A stretch of 42,429 bases of DNA. Source: Caldithrix sp. Lineage in GTDB: Bacteria > Calditrichota > Calditrichia > Calditrichales > Calditrichaceae. The notes beneath the pieces are model-generated. The model saw nothing but the letters and a program-made list of their open reading frames with translations, did not search any database and was not told the origin of the DNA. Made by a program: the position numbers and the translations under genes. This document shows, one piece after another, positions 5,298 to 30,773 of this stretch (position 1 is its first letter; every line of letters begins with the position of its first letter). The stretch covers positions 47,483-89,911 of the forward strand of contig DYOS01000002.1 in the NCBI GenBank assembly GCA_020720405.1. Direction: 5' to 3'.

Positions 5298-6311
5298 TTA
5301 CATACCAAATTGAAATGTAAACCGGTGTATGTCATCGAAGATGCCGAAAGTTGTATAACTATAGTTTATCCCGACATTGTATCCGGCTGTTTCGGTGTTC
5401 AGACCAAGTCCGAGACTTAAGCCCTGCTCGTCGGTCGGGGTTGTATAGCCAGCACGAAGCATAAACATTTTGTAAAAACCATACTCAAGACCAAAATCAA
5501 TCTGCTCCGGATAATCACGGGGATGCGTGGCATCGACGGAAAGCAGAAGTGAATGGACTGCCGGATCAAAACTGGTCAGATCGACCAGATCCATGCTCAG
5601 GCCGGTTTCGAACTGCAATGGTAGAGGAAAGTTTTCCTCGATGAAATGAATTTCCTCCGAAAAATTGCGCACATTCATACCAAAACTCAGGCTCTTGAAC
5701 CCGGTTCGGTAAAGAATACCGAAATCGTAGGCTAAAACACTTTGCTTATAGGATTTAACTTTTCCCTGCTGATCGTTCTCAAAATTATTCAATCCGCCGG
5801 TTAAATCGAGATGGGCAATTTTAATTTGTCCGCCAACGGAAAATTTATTGGTCAGGTATTTGGCGTAGCCCAAACCAAAAGAGGAAGCAGCCGGAGTAAA
5901 CGTGCCGATATCCAAAAACCCCTGCTCATTTTCAGCGCGGATTGTGCCATAAAAATCACCGTAATCCACAGAAAGCATGGTTATTCCAAAAACACCCCAG
6001 GCACCGCCCTGCGGACTAAAGGCCAGGGCAGCCGATATATAATTAAAATCGGCGATAAAGGTCATTTTTGAAAATGACACATCCAGAAATCCATCCATCC
6101 GGGCCATACCAGCCGGATTATAAAAAAGTGAGGCCGCGCCAAAATCACGGGCGACGAGGGCATTGCTCAGGCCAGCCGCATGGGCATCCGTTCCTGCACT
6201 TAAAAATTTCATTCCGGTTTGAGCCAGTTTCCTGTTTTCTCCGGCCCAACTTTGGATTGCTATCAGATTTATCAGAGCAAAAATCAGGATATACATCTTT
6301 ATTAACTTCAT
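5298..6311 (-). CDS. PorV/PorQ-family outer membrane beta-barrel protein
   Basis: This 337-residue protein has a signal peptide and the family N-terminus: AQTGMKFLSAGTDAHAAGLS, then AASLFYNPAGMA. Alternating amphipathic strands run to the end, finishing with the aromatic terminus RFTFQFGM that is typical of an outer membrane barrel. PorV is the T9SS shuttle protein that carries cargo to the attachment complex; relatives of this type are numerous in T9SS bacteria and may serve particular cargos. I chose ATG 6311, which has an AGGTG site, over the in-frame GTG at 6320. It sits between two secreted protein genes of the same operon, with gaps of 8 and 20 bases, which suggests a role in sorting the products of its neighbours. 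Confidence 0.82.
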   Translation of the reverse strand: MKLIKMYILIFALINLIAIQSWAGENRKLAQTGMKFLSAGTDAHAAGLSNALVARDFGAASLFYNPAGMARMDGFLDVSFSKMTFIADFNYISAALAFSPQGGAWGVFGITMLSVDYGDFYGTIRAENEQGFLDIGTFTPAASSFGLGYAKYLTNKFSVGGQIKIAHLDLTGGLNNFENDQQGKVKSYKQSVLAYDFGILYRTGFKSLSFGMNVRNFSEEIHFIEENFPLPLQFETGLSMDLVDLTSFDPAVHSLLLSVDATHPRDYPEQIDFGLEYGFYKMFMLRAGYTTPTDEQGLSLGLGLNTETAGYNVGINYSYTTFGIFDDIHRFTFQFGM

Positions 6312-6331
6312 AATCTTCACCTGATCCTTTA

Positions 6332-8413
6332 TTATCGGATTACTACAAATTTGAGAATCTTTTTATCACCGGTAACTTCATCTTCAACCACGGCAATATA
6401 GATTCCGCTGACCACGATCTGATTGAACATCGTAACACCATTCCAGTAAGCATCACCGCTGCCATCCGTGTGGTGCATCGAATAAATTTTCTCGCCAATC
6501 TCGGTGTAAATCGAAATAGTACATTGGCCGGGTATATTAAAAAAAGCCAGCTTGTCCGGTTCGTTCCGGCCAAATCGTAACCGGGTTTCATCCGACGACA
6601 GAATAAAAGGATTGGGAACAACACGCATAACGTTCAGATTGCCGGCCGGCCTTTTCAGAAAAGCAGGATCGTAGCTTTGGGTATAATACCGACTGCTTCT
6701 TAACCGTGTCGCCGGGATATTGAGAGAAGCATTGGCCGCAATATTCTGGCCCAGTGTTTCAATATAATAATAGTATCCGACACCCCGCACCGGTGAAGTA
6801 TCATCATAACTTCGTTCTCCGCTTCCGGCCTCATAAATCAATTCGGCCGGATTATCCAGCCGGTCAGCGACGCGGTAAATCCTGAAACCCGTCACGTTCG
6901 GATCATTCTCATCAAACAACTCCCAACGCAATTGGATGCGGTCGCCGCCGCCATCTACCTGGAAGGTTTTCGGTGGTTTCGGGTAATCCGGCAGAACATA
7001 ACCGTTTTCATAAACATTCTGAATCCGTCTGAACGTTTGGAAAAGCGAATCACGGCCGGTCATCACCCAGGTATTTTTTGCTTTTGCATCGATCTGACCG
7101 TTTTTATATTGTTTCCCAATTTCATTGCACATGTCCCGTCCCAAACCGGCAACCGCCTCAGCCATGATTATGGTTACACTTTCTCCCGGTTCAAGAGTGT
7201 ATGGACCGTAACCATTGGCGAAGGAATAGCCGCCAGCTGTGCCAAGCGCAGGTTCGGTTTTCTGTGTGGTAAAATCACCGGATGGCTGAACTTTCCAGGC
7301 ATGACGCGGGGTCATATTGCCTTTGGTCATCAGTGCATATTCTTTGGTCATCTTGGAAATATCATACTGATTGTTTTGAAAATTCAGATCCATATCTGAT
7401 TCGATAAAACTGGTTGTCTGTGGTTGGGCCGGGTTATCGCTGGAATTTCCAGCCTCTGTATCGGCATGCAGGGTTAATATTCCGCAGAATTGCGGCGCGC
7501 CGATCCGGCCTAAGGTGTCAAAGGCGGCGATGTAATGATTTGTGACATTATCCTGATACCAGATTGGTGCGCCCATATTATCATAGGGTACATCTTTGTC
7601 CGGCCAATAGCCATGCCATGAAAACTGAGCCCGGAACCGTTCATCAGCGGGATCGCCATAAAGACCGATATTGGCTGCGCCATCGCCCCGGGCATCATTC
7701 ATGGTCATAATACCCCATCCCGTTTTATTGCCAATCAGGTACCTGGTCTGCCGGACGGAAGAATAGCGGTATTGATAGTAGAAATATAAATCGGTCAACG
7801 TTTTGCCGGAATACTCGATTTCACTGTCATCATCTGCATTGCCGGTGTTGGTGAACGTGTATTCGTAAATCATATAATTATCATTAAACTGCTGGCTAAA
7901 CTGCATAATTTTCCTGGTCATGGTCAGCCCGATGCTCGAATTTACAACGTTTACAAACATCCGGTCTGCGGACAACTGTGGATCAACCGCATCAATTTCA
8001 ACTTGTTTTTCAAATGATAAAACACCTTCCACAAACACATTTGGCGCATCAAATTTGCTGATCAGGTCAAATTGAACAGGATAAAATTCGCCTTCTCCGG
8101 TCACACGCGGACCAATATGAACTACTTTATTAGGATAAAAATCGCCTTTAGAATCAGTAAAATCCGTCGTGCCGATCCAGAAACCTTTGGCTGCCTGGTT
8201 ATCCTGATAATCGTAAATGGCCGGCCATTGCAGTCCGTATTGTTGTGAAATAACATAACCTTGTTCTTTTTCGTTGCCAATCTCGGAGAACCAGTTATGC
8301 AGAGAACCGACATTCATCCAGCGATTGGCATATTGGGCAACTCCGGATTCCGTGCTTATCAGCAGTAACAAGAGTCCGGATAAAAAGAATACTATTTTTC
8401 GATTCTGTTTCAT
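6332..8413 (-). CDS. Large secreted protein with fibronectin-III-like module and T9SS-like tail
   Basis: This 693-residue protein has a signal peptide (KIVFFLSGLLLLLISTESGVAQ). The N-terminal 450 residues belong to no family I can name; they are rich in aromatic and Asp/Asn residues. Residues about 480-565 form a fibronectin-III-like module (RIQLRWELFDENDPNVTGFR, later YYYYIETLG). The last 90 residues (NVMRVVPNPFI, then VSGIYIAVVEDE and KFVVIR) look like a divergent type A sorting domain in which the usual NYPNPFNP is reduced to VPNPFI. ATG 8413 has a GAGGTG site and is preferred over GTG 8419. It lies 16 bases after the lipoprotein gene. Its size and place beside the receptor suggest a surface binding or scaffold protein; function is unknown. 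Confidence 0.72.
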   Translation of the reverse strand: MKQNRKIVFFLSGLLLLLISTESGVAQYANRWMNVGSLHNWFSEIGNEKEQGYVISQQYGLQWPAIYDYQDNQAAKGFWIGTTDFTDSKGDFYPNKVVHIGPRVTGEGEFYPVQFDLISKFDAPNVFVEGVLSFEKQVEIDAVDPQLSADRMFVNVVNSSIGLTMTRKIMQFSQQFNDNYMIYEYTFTNTGNADDDSEIEYSGKTLTDLYFYYQYRYSSVRQTRYLIGNKTGWGIMTMNDARGDGAANIGLYGDPADERFRAQFSWHGYWPDKDVPYDNMGAPIWYQDNVTNHYIAAFDTLGRIGAPQFCGILTLHADTEAGNSSDNPAQPQTTSFIESDMDLNFQNNQYDISKMTKEYALMTKGNMTPRHAWKVQPSGDFTTQKTEPALGTAGGYSFANGYGPYTLEPGESVTIIMAEAVAGLGRDMCNEIGKQYKNGQIDAKAKNTWVMTGRDSLFQTFRRIQNVYENGYVLPDYPKPPKTFQVDGGGDRIQLRWELFDENDPNVTGFRIYRVADRLDNPAELIYEAGSGERSYDDTSPVRGVGYYYYIETLGQNIAANASLNIPATRLRSSRYYTQSYDPAFLKRPAGNLNVMRVVPNPFILSSDETRLRFGRNEPDKLAFFNIPGQCTISIYTEIGEKIYSMHHTDGSGDAYWNGVTMFNQIVVSGIYIAVVEDEVTGDKKILKFVVIR

Positions 8414-27521: not shown

Positions 27522-28394
27522 ATGCTTGAATCTGAAGTGATTGTCGTTGAAAACATCGATACAAATAACTATCTGCAAATGGCCGATGCGTCTGTCCGTT
27601 ATGCCCTTCTTTCAATTCCGTTTACGGTAAACCGCATGAACCTTTCGTCCGTCACAGACCGGATTCTCAACATCGCCAAGGGCAAACTGGCCGAAGCCTT
27701 GTTTTTTTATTACTGCCGGGGAAAACAAATTCCCATCGATACCAGAGCCTGCACTACCCCTTTCTGGCAAACCGATCAGCGTGATTTTCTGTTCGATGGT
27801 TATGAATGGGATATCAAAAATAATTTTATCTTTCACGATACTCCGCTGTTCACCGCGGGCAACTACACCAATCTGCCGGCGCTGATACCAAACCGTTTCG
27901 ACGGTGATCAATGGTCAAAAAGAGACAAAACGTATTTTAAAGGAAGCAAGGGAGGGCGAATACTGTTTACCTTTATGCGCGGCGGTTCCAAAGGTTTACC
28001 AGCTGAAAAATTTCTTGAAATCCGATTAAGCAGCGAACAGCTCAAAATGGTCAGCGATACCTGGCAGTATTTCAAAGGCAAAACAACAAATGAACAACCA
28101 TTTTCCGAAGAGCGCTATTTTACCGGACTATTAGATCGTGGCCCGAAGATTTTTTTCCAACTGAATTCGCAGCCGGCGCTGGTCATTACCGGCTGGGCCG
28201 GAGCGGAACACTGGCCTTTATTTCACGATACCGATGCCGACCATGGAAAGGATTTATTCAAACCCGGCTGGTTTGAGGTAAAACCGAATGGCAAACTTTC
28301 TTTTTTAAATGGCACCTTGTTCACGAAAATTAAAAACCGCACCGCTTCAATTGATGAGTTACCCTCATTTTTATCTTTGTGGCCACAAGCATAA
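27522..28394 (+). CDS. Uncharacterised protein, candidate PD-(D/E)XK nuclease next to a DNA methyltransferase
   Basis: I do not recognise this 290-residue protein by family. Residues 50-100 have the look of a PD-(D/E)XK core: Glu58 in a helix (IAKGKLAEALFFYY), Asp88 or Asp92 on a strand (DFLFDGYEW) and Asp97-Ile-Lys99 (WDIKN). The segment NLPALIPNRFDGDQWSKR and the C-terminal Trp/Phe-rich part match nothing I can name. No signal peptide or membrane segment is present. It converges on a DNA methyltransferase gene only 66 bases away, so a restriction endonuclease is the most economical reading. That rests on motif and context, not on homology. ATG 27522 has no clear ribosome binding site. Base composition is similar to the neighbours. 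Confidence 0.55.
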   Translation: MLESEVIVVENIDTNNYLQMADASVRYALLSIPFTVNRMNLSSVTDRILNIAKGKLAEALFFYYCRGKQIPIDTRACTTPFWQTDQRDFLFDGYEWDIKNNFIFHDTPLFTAGNYTNLPALIPNRFDGDQWSKRDKTYFKGSKGGRILFTFMRGGSKGLPAEKFLEIRLSSEQLKMVSDTWQYFKGKTTNEQPFSEERYFTGLLDRGPKIFFQLNSQPALVITGWAGAEHWPLFHDTDADHGKDLFKPGWFEVKPNGKLSFLNGTLFTKIKNRTASIDELPSFLSLWPQA

Positions 28395-28429
28395 CGGATT
28401 ATACCGTGAGAATAAAACAATAATAAAAA

Positions 28430-28461
28430 CAGAAACTGTGGTTACAAATCTTCCCACAGTT
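28430..28461 (-). terminator. Terminator of the methyltransferase operon
   Basis: On the minus strand AACTGTGG and CCACAGTT form an 8-bp stem (28434-28441 with 28454-28461) overlapping the methyltransferase stop codon, followed by the T-rich run TTTCTGTTTTTATT. It separates the convergent methyltransferase and candidate nuclease genes. Confidence 0.65.
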
Positions 28462-29885
28462 CAATACGGTTTCTGAAAGGTCAGGCAGTACTGGTGAAAG
28501 GTATTGCTGACCCAGGTATTGCCGTAACCGTATGGCGCAATGCTGATATCATCCTGACACCAGAAGGCTTCAGGCAGTAAAATCAGTTTTTCCTGTAACA
28601 GTCGTCCCAGATCCCAGGCAAAGGGATAGTTTCTGCCTTTCTTTTTGATATTCTTAACCACAATAGTCATGTACCGACCGGGCTGGAGCAAATCAGCCAG
28701 GTGGAAATAAACAGATTTCAGCTGGTCGATAAAAGCCTGATATTCGGTAATATTGCCCAGGTCCCGGTCATCTTCCGAGTAATTGAGCTGCAAACCTTTT
28801 GACTTGCGTGTGGCCTGATATTCGGCGCCTTTCATGTTGAGCATATCCCAGTAAGGCGGCGAGGTAATGATATAATGAAGCGGCGGGAAATCGCCGGCTA
28901 AAATCTGCCGGGCATCTTTTTGTAGAATTCTGTAATCGCCGGCCGGTGCTTTTTCAGGAAAATTCTCCGGCTGAACAACATCCCGGCAGCGCTGGCCGGC
29001 AATTTCGGCGAAAAAAGAACTCAACTCGGTACCATATCCATTCCGTCCCGCTTTCAGGGCGGCAACCTGTGTGCTGCCGGTTCCGGACATGGGATCGAAC
29101 ACATTTTCACCAGGCCGGGTGAACTGTTCAATATACATCGTGGTCAGGTCTTCGGGATATTTAGCCGGATGAAGAATCTCATTCTTGCGCCGTGGCGGCG
29201 GCTTTAATATAAACCAGGACGGAATAGGTTTCCCAAACCCGGTTTTATCTTGTTGCTGCTGGTTTTGTTTAAAAAAGTCATTACCCGTCGGAATTGGCCT
29301 GGCTCCACTGTTCTCATCCTTACGAAAATACAGTACATAAAAAATTTGTTGATCTGTGGTGAAATGGAATGATTTTCCGTCTGGATGTTTCCCGGGCCCA
29401 GGCAGCCCGGCAATTTTTTCATCCTTCAGAGAAAATATACCGGAGACAGTCTCAGCCAAATCCCAGGCGACCGGCAAAAAGGTCCCGGCAAGATATAACT
29501 GAGGGAGCAGGATGCACAGAAACCGGCGCTGTTCTATTTTTGGCTTCAGGTCTGCGATCAGCGATAAAATATTTTGCTTGTAGCTATTCCACTGACCGGC
29601 AGCGGTCAGAGCAGCGACCTCATCACGCAGATCGAGCAGAGCAAACTGAATTTCCGTGGCAGCGGTCCGGGTTGAAGTGATGATCTCAAGTTGTTCTTCA
29701 GCAGCAATCCGGCGCAGGTTTTCTTCCTGCCGGCCGTAAAAAAAAACCGGTTGCCCGGTCGCTTCGGCATGGGTAAAAAAGCGCAGGTTTTGACGGAACA
29801 GGTTCTCATCGCCGGTATAGCGGAACCAGGATTTCTGAAAAGGCAGCCACTCTTTGGAAGTCAGACGGTTAAAGCGGTTTTTCAT
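28461..29885 (-). CDS. Site-specific DNA methyltransferase, probably N4-cytosine type
   Basis: This 474-residue protein contains an AdoMet-binding motif I (FDPMSGTG, residues 263-270) preceded by a motif X-like segment (HPAKYPEDLTTMYIEQFT), and the catalytic motif IV TSPPYW (341-346). SPPYW is the form usual for N4-cytosine methyltransferases, although N6-adenine cannot be excluded. The first 230 residues are outside the methylase core and resemble nothing I know; they may hold the target recognition domain. It is the third gene of an operon after DUF2231 and DUF89 genes, six bases behind the latter, and converges on the candidate nuclease. ATG 29885 has no strong ribosome binding site, so it probably depends on coupling. 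Confidence 0.85.
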   Translation of the reverse strand: MKNRFNRLTSKEWLPFQKSWFRYTGDENLFRQNLRFFTHAEATGQPVFFYGRQEENLRRIAAEEQLEIITSTRTAATEIQFALLDLRDEVAALTAAGQWNSYKQNILSLIADLKPKIEQRRFLCILLPQLYLAGTFLPVAWDLAETVSGIFSLKDEKIAGLPGPGKHPDGKSFHFTTDQQIFYVLYFRKDENSGARPIPTGNDFFKQNQQQQDKTGFGKPIPSWFILKPPPRRKNEILHPAKYPEDLTTMYIEQFTRPGENVFDPMSGTGSTQVAALKAGRNGYGTELSSFFAEIAGQRCRDVVQPENFPEKAPAGDYRILQKDARQILAGDFPPLHYIITSPPYWDMLNMKGAEYQATRKSKGLQLNYSEDDRDLGNITEYQAFIDQLKSVYFHLADLLQPGRYMTIVVKNIKKKGRNYPFAWDLGRLLQEKLILLPEAFWCQDDISIAPYGYGNTWVSNTFHQYCLTFQKPY

Positions 29886-29891
29886 CGGCAG

Positions 29892-30773
29892 TTAAACCAC
29901 GTTGTAGTTTGGATTACGTTGAAAAATCAAACTGCCTTCAGGTGCGGAAAGCTGGCCGGCAATAGCGGGACATTTAACCCGGAGAAGAAAATAGATCAGC
30001 CGGTTCTCCCTATCCAGGGTTTCGTAATTACCCTGCCCTTTTGAAATAATCATATCGGCCCCGGTAAAGGCCTGGCGGGTTTCAGCATTGATTCTATTCA
30101 GATCGGTGGCCGGTGCGCTATCACCATTGGACATTACCGGCACCATCTTTGTCAGGCCGACCATCTCGGCATCTTCCATGGTCACATCATTGATGATTGG
30201 CCCGCCGCGGACAACCACACTGATCTTCAGATTCTTTTCCGGGTAGAAACGCAGCAGCATTTCGATAAACAGCCGGTCGAAAACTATTTCACCGGCATTA
30301 TCAGCCAGGTACAGGATGTTCTGCCGGGTCAGCAGATCATTGATAAACTGATTAAAATGATTGATTGTGAAATCAAGCTGAGAAATACTATCCACTAATG
30401 AACTGACCTGAACCGGCCGGGCCGAAGTTCCAAAATCAATAATATTCCCGGCAACGGATAATTTCGCAGCCATTAAAACCGGATCAGCACTGTGAAAAAC
30501 CATCCGCCGCAGATCATCATAAAGGGCAAGAGCAGCCTGGTTGTACTTTCTTTTAATGTCATGGTAAGGATCGGGATTTCCGGATATTTCACTGATCAGT
30601 TTATATAACTCCCGACCAATGATTGGTGGCGGTGTGCTGTAATCGATGGTTTGCAGAAAAGTCAGTACCCGGTCTATGGCAATTTTCTGCGTTTGTTCAT
30701 CGGTTATAGACAGCGTAACTGTATCAATCGTTTGCCGGAGCAGGCAGGGAATACAGTGATGTTGTGTTTTCAA
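29892..30773 (-). CDS. DUF89/ARMT1-like protein, subfamily with N-terminal CxxC
   Basis: This 293-residue protein matches the DUF89 damage-control phosphatase family: an N-terminal Cys7-x-x-Cys10 (HHCIPCLLRQ), the metal-site segment LADNAGEIVFDRLFIE, and the ISKGQGNYETL loop near the C-terminus. Characterised DUF89 proteins are metal-dependent phosphatases that remove harmful phosphometabolites; the CxxC subfamily is microbial and its substrate is not settled. The start is TTG 30773: an in-frame stop of the upstream gene lies directly before it, and family homology begins at residue 1. It is coupled to the DUF2231 gene (3-base gap) and followed after 6 bases by the DNA methyltransferase. Confidence 0.85.
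   Translation of the reverse strand: MKTQHHCIPCLLRQTIDTVTLSITDEQTQKIAIDRVLTFLQTIDYSTPPPIIGRELYKLISEISGNPDPYHDIKRKYNQAALALYDDLRRMVFHSADPVLMAAKLSVAGNIIDFGTSARPVQVSSLVDSISQLDFTINHFNQFINDLLTRQNILYLADNAGEIVFDRLFIEMLLRFYPEKNLKISVVVRGGPIINDVTMEDAEMVGLTKMVPVMSNGDSAPATDLNRINAETRQAFTGADMIISKGQGNYETLDRENRLIYFLLRVKCPAIAGQLSAPEGSLIFQRNPNYNVV

Follow-up and report, generated by a model that had tools for sequence, protein, structure and literature searches.

Type II restriction-modification systems are the closest described counterparts of the locus reported here, which shares with them separate nuclease (R) and methyltransferase (M) genes, a PD-(D/E)XK-type motif (with EcoRV and SfiI as the fold yardsticks), an amino-methyltransferase and an R that depends on M. 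Separated Type II systems, with R and M apart in the genome and orthologous linked systems elsewhere, were predicted in the survey of Ershova et al. 2012, in which the proven cases were confined to Type I and the function of unlinked Type II genes was left open (PMC3488263). Among the amino-methyltransferases, CcrM is a dimer with unequal subunit roles (PMC6787082). The present pair also has genes that lie apart in some genomes and orthologous linked pairs in others; however, it differs from the surveyed systems in that a single family comprises eight separated and 17 neighbouring pairs with near-perfect co-occurrence, and from Type II systems in general in that no relative of R could be detected by sequence in PDB, Pfam, PADLOC, NCBIfam or PHROGs, and in combining a strict convergent arrangement with recurrent gene separation.

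The window, a stretch of 42,429 nucleotides from Caldithrix sp. (contig DYOS01000002.1), carries the two genes as the initial annotation had placed them, convergent and 66 nt apart. Their features, in window positions, are as follows.

27522..28394, + strand: R gene, putative restriction endonuclease of PD-(D/E)XK type, 290 aa (ORF; family alignments; AlphaFold model)
27693..27695, + strand: codon of E58, motif GKLAE, helix 44-67 (32/34 relatives; AlphaFold helix)
27783..27818, + strand: codons of D88 to D97-x-K99, predicted active-site core on a beta hairpin (conservation; strands 89-91 and 94-104)
28395..28460, no strand: 66-nt spacer between the convergent stop codons of R and M (sequence)
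28433-28462: 9-bp hairpin in the spacer and last bases of the M gene, followed by a T-rich run on the - strand
28461..29885, - strand: M gene, DNA methyltransferase, 474 aa, predicted N4-cytosine type (PF01555, E 9.4e-20; PADLOC MTase_II; PDB relatives 2zie and 8s9m by sequence)
28848..28865, - strand: catalytic motif IV of M, TSPPYW (sequence; invariant)
29073..29099, - strand: SAM-binding motif I of M, FDPMSGTGS (sequence; core conserved)
29223..29822, - strand: degenerate methyltransferase-like domain of M, approximately residues 22-221 (profile match, model, absence in short forms)
29892-30773, - strand: ARMT1-like gene upstream of M, its stop 6 nt from the M start

Taken together, the evidence presented below makes it highly probable that R and M form a Type II restriction-modification system, with a nuclease family that is uncatalogued, a methyltransferase that carries a pseudo-domain, and genes that have repeatedly become separated. 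In such a system, M would methylate a short site in host DNA, probably at N4 of cytosine, and R would cut the same site when unmethylated. The two genes are separate and adjacent in the window; no control gene was found beside them, which counts against this reading, and no translocase or specificity subunit gene, neither of which a Type II system needs (a point that excludes Types I and III), was found among the window neighbours examined. With its start 6 nt from the ARMT1-like gene, which itself follows a 152-aa ORF, the M gene appears to close an unrelated operon. Cotranscription of M with unrelated genes, as claimed earlier, fits the 6-nt gap, although such a gap is no demonstration of it. 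The spacer hairpin, with a fold z-score of only -1.14 and absent from the terminator-scan output, is only suggestive of a terminator for the M gene.

No family was assigned to R or its relatives in Pfam, PADLOC, NCBIfam or PHROGs, and no sequence match was found in PDB; the known-family search with all 34 nucleases and the PDB profile search returned isolated weak hits only. It is in this sense, absence from these five resources by sequence, that we call the nuclease uncatalogued, and the earlier remark that it has no recognisable family holds across all of them. Eighteen relatives from the long-form group (defined below) were aligned at full length and 34 over the core, where E58 (32/34), D88 (33/34), D97 (33/34) and K99 (32/34) are conserved, along with D85 (32-33/34). 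The resulting pattern, GKLAE ... TPF..D..DF.F.G.EWDIK, is the usual one of PD-(D/E)XK enzymes. The core proposed by the initial annotation (E58, D88, D97-x-K99) is thus present and conserved in 32-33 of the 34 relatives; D92, also put forward there, falls outside the conserved set, whereas D88, possibly with D85, belongs to the conserved site. In the AlphaFold model (18 sequences; mean pLDDT 88.7, pTM 0.90), helix 44-67, which holds E58, is followed by strands 89-91, 94-104, 119-123 and 145-155, with D88 directly before strand 89-91 and with D97 and K99 on strand 94-104. A Foldseek search of this model against PDB gave no match at E <= 0.001 (best E 0.4); EcoRV and SfiI, both PD-(D/E)XK restriction enzymes, made up nine of the top 11 entries, with weak scores (E 0.6-1.9, probability 0.03-0.12). 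The only viral Foldseek match below 0.001 was to an uncharacterised phage protein and was uninformative. From its motif, R likely belongs to the PD-(D/E)XK superfamily.

Relatives of R were reached through the methyltransferase scan, as a single-sequence nuclease scan of genome contigs yielded none. Direct searches of viral contigs, phages and plasmids returned no nuclease relative either, and a phage-borne system was set aside as far as these searches could see. A Bacteroidales GH48 genome (G060) has, in a housekeeping setting, a second nuclease paralogue that is divergent and degenerate (L128:5250-6053, + strand; hhalign E 2e-23); it lacks E58, D97 and K99 and is presumably an inactive homologue.

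M carries both motifs noted before, FDPMSGTG (residues 263-270) and TSPPYW (341-346), and they occur in the order HPAKYPE (X-like), FDPMSGTGS (I), TSPPYW (IV). Across 27 full-length relatives, TSPPYW and the motif I core (DPM-GT) are invariant. Because of the TSPPYW motif, M is predicted to be an N4-cytosine (m4C) methyltransferase. Its SAM-binding part aligns with those of TTHA0409 (2zie) and the CcrM-type beta-class amino-methyltransferases over residues 236-305. However, the beta-class order, with motif IV before X and I, is not that of M, whose catalytic domain runs through motifs X, I, II and III and then IV to VIII; all that precedes motif I in the chain is a degenerate domain of its own, fused to the catalytic one.

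This domain accounts for the approximately 230 N-terminal residues that could not be assigned initially. The N-terminal part matches the C-terminal part of M by profile (probability 98.2, E 3.2e-14, score 97), whereas 30 column shuffles, run as a control, scored at most 20. The AlphaFold model of M (pLDDT 85.9) shows parallel secondary structure in the two halves: E79-85, H96-116, E117-127, E130-132, E135-137, H139-147, E152-160 and E181-188 in the first copy, and E336-341, H382-399, E400-410, E413-415, E418-420, H422-432, E440-443 and E464-471 in the second. Since the first copy has neither motif I nor the SPPYW motif, it is read as a dead methyltransferase domain. It is inserted after the N-terminal motif N-x-L-x-x-L...FQKSWF: in short-form relatives (from Chloroflexota, archaea and other groups) the sequence is N-x-L-N-D-L...KFQKSWF-IHNPPPR...HPAKFPE with no inserted domain, whereas long-form M proteins carry the extra domain between QKSWF and (P)SWF-ILKPPPR. 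The simplest reading of this comparison is a duplication inserted at SWF. M would then combine a catalytic Rossmann domain with a second, degenerate one fused to it, which may be a built-in dimer partner, given the unequal roles of the two subunits in CcrM-like dimers. The degenerate copy would probably stand in for the other subunit with which such methyltransferases usually dimerise, in DNA binding or target recognition.

Loci were gathered by methyltransferase similarity alone, in a scan of genome contigs, so that their neighbours provide an unbiased test of the pairing. A nuclease lies downstream of M in 40 of 80 loci, which bears out the pair as conserved neighbours, a check that had been proposed for it. 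Among the long-form loci the nuclease is downstream in 17 of 34 (one of the 17 being a decayed fragment) and convergent in all 17, and 15 of these pairs lie within 100 nt, with stop-to-stop distances from -26 to +90 nt. The short-form loci have a divergent nuclease homologue downstream in 23 of 46, co-directional in 23/23, and most of these gene pairs overlap or abut. In both groups, several loci are cut off by the end of a contig.

The association is also evident at the level of whole genomes. Four clades comprising 782 genomes, mostly metagenome assemblies, were surveyed. In the window's phylum (40 genomes), the nuclease was found in three genomes and the full-length methyltransferase in the same three, with a partial methyltransferase hit (33%) in one further genome, G030. 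In the Saprospiraceae-type family of G053 (199 genomes), five had the nuclease, six the methyltransferase and five both; the corresponding counts were 8, 9 and 7 in the phylum of G063 (Marinimicrobia, 245 genomes) and 14, 11 and 11 in the class of G506 (Anaerolineales, 298 genomes). Chance neighbourhood of R and M was ruled out by the hypergeometric p-values in three clades: 1e-4 (40 genomes), 2.4e-9 (199) and 3e-11 (245). Pairwise protein distances of R and M are correlated (r = 0.73 over 25 pairs; permutation count 0 of 2000), as are those of the eight unlinked pairs considered separately (r = 0.92; 1 of 2000), a correlation that could partly reflect shared vertical descent.

A nuclease hit was present somewhere in 25 of 33 long-form genomes, eight of which (G041, G047, G050, G053, G054, G056, G057 and G070, identical with G015) hold R and M unlinked, an arrangement that is unusual for Type II restriction-modification and speaks against such a reading. 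There, M and the nuclease are on different contigs, and the chromosomal surroundings of the nuclease are ordinary and include no methyltransferase. Both genes are well inside long contigs in G047, G056 and G015; in a further genome, G071, a linked pair was probably broken by contig ends. Some of the unlinked cases could be binning errors, but their recurrence across clades argues against all of them being so. For both of its proteins, the unlinked L030 pair is most closely related to the linked pair of G004, which indicates that the separation happened within the family. Nuclease homologues regularly lacking a methyltransferase neighbour had been named as grounds for rejecting the pair; taken literally, these eight genomes supply them, but a methyltransferase is encoded elsewhere in all eight. 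At L032:2228-2893, M and R flank an IS200-like (Y1_Tnp) transposase, a possible route to gene separation.

The dependence of the two genes on each other is asymmetric. Methyltransferase-only relatives are common: in G388, M adjoins a sigma-70 gene at a locus where G391 retains the nuclease, an apparent clean deletion, and L043 has an intact M beside a 100-aa remnant of a decayed nuclease. Conversely, the methyltransferase was detected in 26 of the 30 nuclease-bearing genomes of the four clades. The four exceptions, which count against the reading, are contig-edge fragments in G391 and G590 and full nucleases in G640 and G708; in the three whose sequence covers the active site (G590, G640 and G708), near-invariant residues are altered (G54 to N/S, T79 to A, D85 to E). 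An M that is tolerated alone and an intact R that rarely occurs without M form the pattern predicted for a toxic sequence-specific cutter from which M would protect the cell; the asymmetric dependence of R on M is therefore a restriction-modification signature. Together with the conserved neighbourhood, the co-occurrence and the correlated divergence, it supports the pairing of nuclease and methyltransferase first proposed for this locus, with enzymatic activities that are predicted.

The full-length pseudo-domain methyltransferase also occurs as an orphan. Two Kozakia baliensis plasmids (L016 and L017, CDS 5923-7362) encode a DNA methyltransferase that matches M over 97% of the query at 33% identity and includes the pseudo-domain; unlike the window pair, it has no nuclease homologue that we could find on the plasmids and lies in a secretion-system region, with genes of that system on one side and a class A beta-lactamase on the other.

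Linkage, co-occurrence with a methyltransferase and tolerance of separated genes would be equally expected if the nuclease were a repair or methylation-dependent enzyme, Vsr-like or Type IV-like, acting on the product of M or on deamination errors. We consider this unlikely. A cutter that depends on methylation would destroy its own cell's DNA if an active cognate methyltransferase stood beside it, and the common methyltransferase-only relatives fit the loss of a costly R. Vsr repairs 5-methylcytosine deamination, whereas N4-methylcytosine, the predicted product of M, does not give thymine. Moreover, no Vsr-family match was found among the nuclease family members searched, one weak NucS hit was obtained in 1 of 34, and the family searches matched no known Type IV restriction domain; a Type IV enzyme would have such a domain or no cognate methyltransferase, whereas here a partner methyltransferase is present.

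The neighbours of the pair bear on whether R and M are instead the core or remnant of a larger, helicase-containing multi-gene defence system. Such a system may exist in archaea: the Haloferax lucentense plasmid pSVX82-3 (L018:5863-10875) carries a short methyltransferase related to M and, after it, genes for a UvrD helicase that bears a PDDEXK_1 domain and for a remote relative of R, possibly a three-gene variant. However, the neighbours checked in Bacteroidota and Marinimicrobia are housekeeping genes that vary by genome (sigma-70, gyrase A, RNase G, AMP ligase), and no recurring third gene was found in the loci checked in these two groups and in Anaerolineae. In some Anaerolineae other genes lie between M and R; these were considered as components and rejected, those checked being unrelated: a glycosyl hydrolase, a gene that matches glycosyltransferases weakly and another that matches no family. 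We therefore regard this possibility as very unlikely for the window pair. At L042:11347-16113, multihaem cytochrome and cytochrome b genes lie between an M and an R that are still convergent.

Least probable of all is that M is an epigenetic regulator near a decaying or inactive relic of a nuclease, as methyltransferase-only genomes and the decayed nucleases of L043, L069 and L071 might suggest, because the window nuclease is intact with every conserved residue kept, linked nucleases are under strong constraint (dN/dS approximately 0.1, with dS near-saturated) and intact nucleases persist unlinked alongside a methyltransferase.

Palindrome avoidance was compared between a host sample of approximately 380 kb (the window plus L131-L170) and a relative lacking the pair. 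CTAG (16 observed versus 172 expected in the host sample) and GGNCC are low in both. The observed/expected ratios of CAGCTG (0.46 in the host versus 0.66 in the relative) and AGCT (0.68 versus 0.86) differ too weakly for either to be named as the target site.

Returning to the Type II interpretation, the nuclease would extend the known restriction enzymes by a family that none of the curated libraries searched contains and that defence-system annotators such as PADLOC therefore cannot see. A broader proposal, to which we give slightly less than an even chance, is that this is a Type II lineage, spread over several bacterial phyla, that is functional with its genes far apart and whose M has internalised a dead dimer partner, the short-form sister branch keeping a plain methyltransferase and operon order. 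As part of this proposal, M would be a single-chain pair of active and inactive domains, comparable in logic to METTL3-METTL14. M also lends itself, as a natural experiment, to asking how the second subunit of an amino-methyltransferase dimer functions after fusion and loss of catalysis. The linked, separated, R-deleted and R-decayed cases provide a comparative set for the question of whether unlinked Type II genes work.

Two other loci differ in the gene next to the methyltransferase. In a genome of the same class (L007:1480-3674), the gene of a short methyltransferase relative overlaps that of a 470-aa protein whose start may be PLD-like (HPFLRGHYHPKFYLF...GSSNFT) and which may be a different R partner; at L060:9410-12865, the gene after a short-form methyltransferase encodes Type III restriction/modification methylation-subunit domains.
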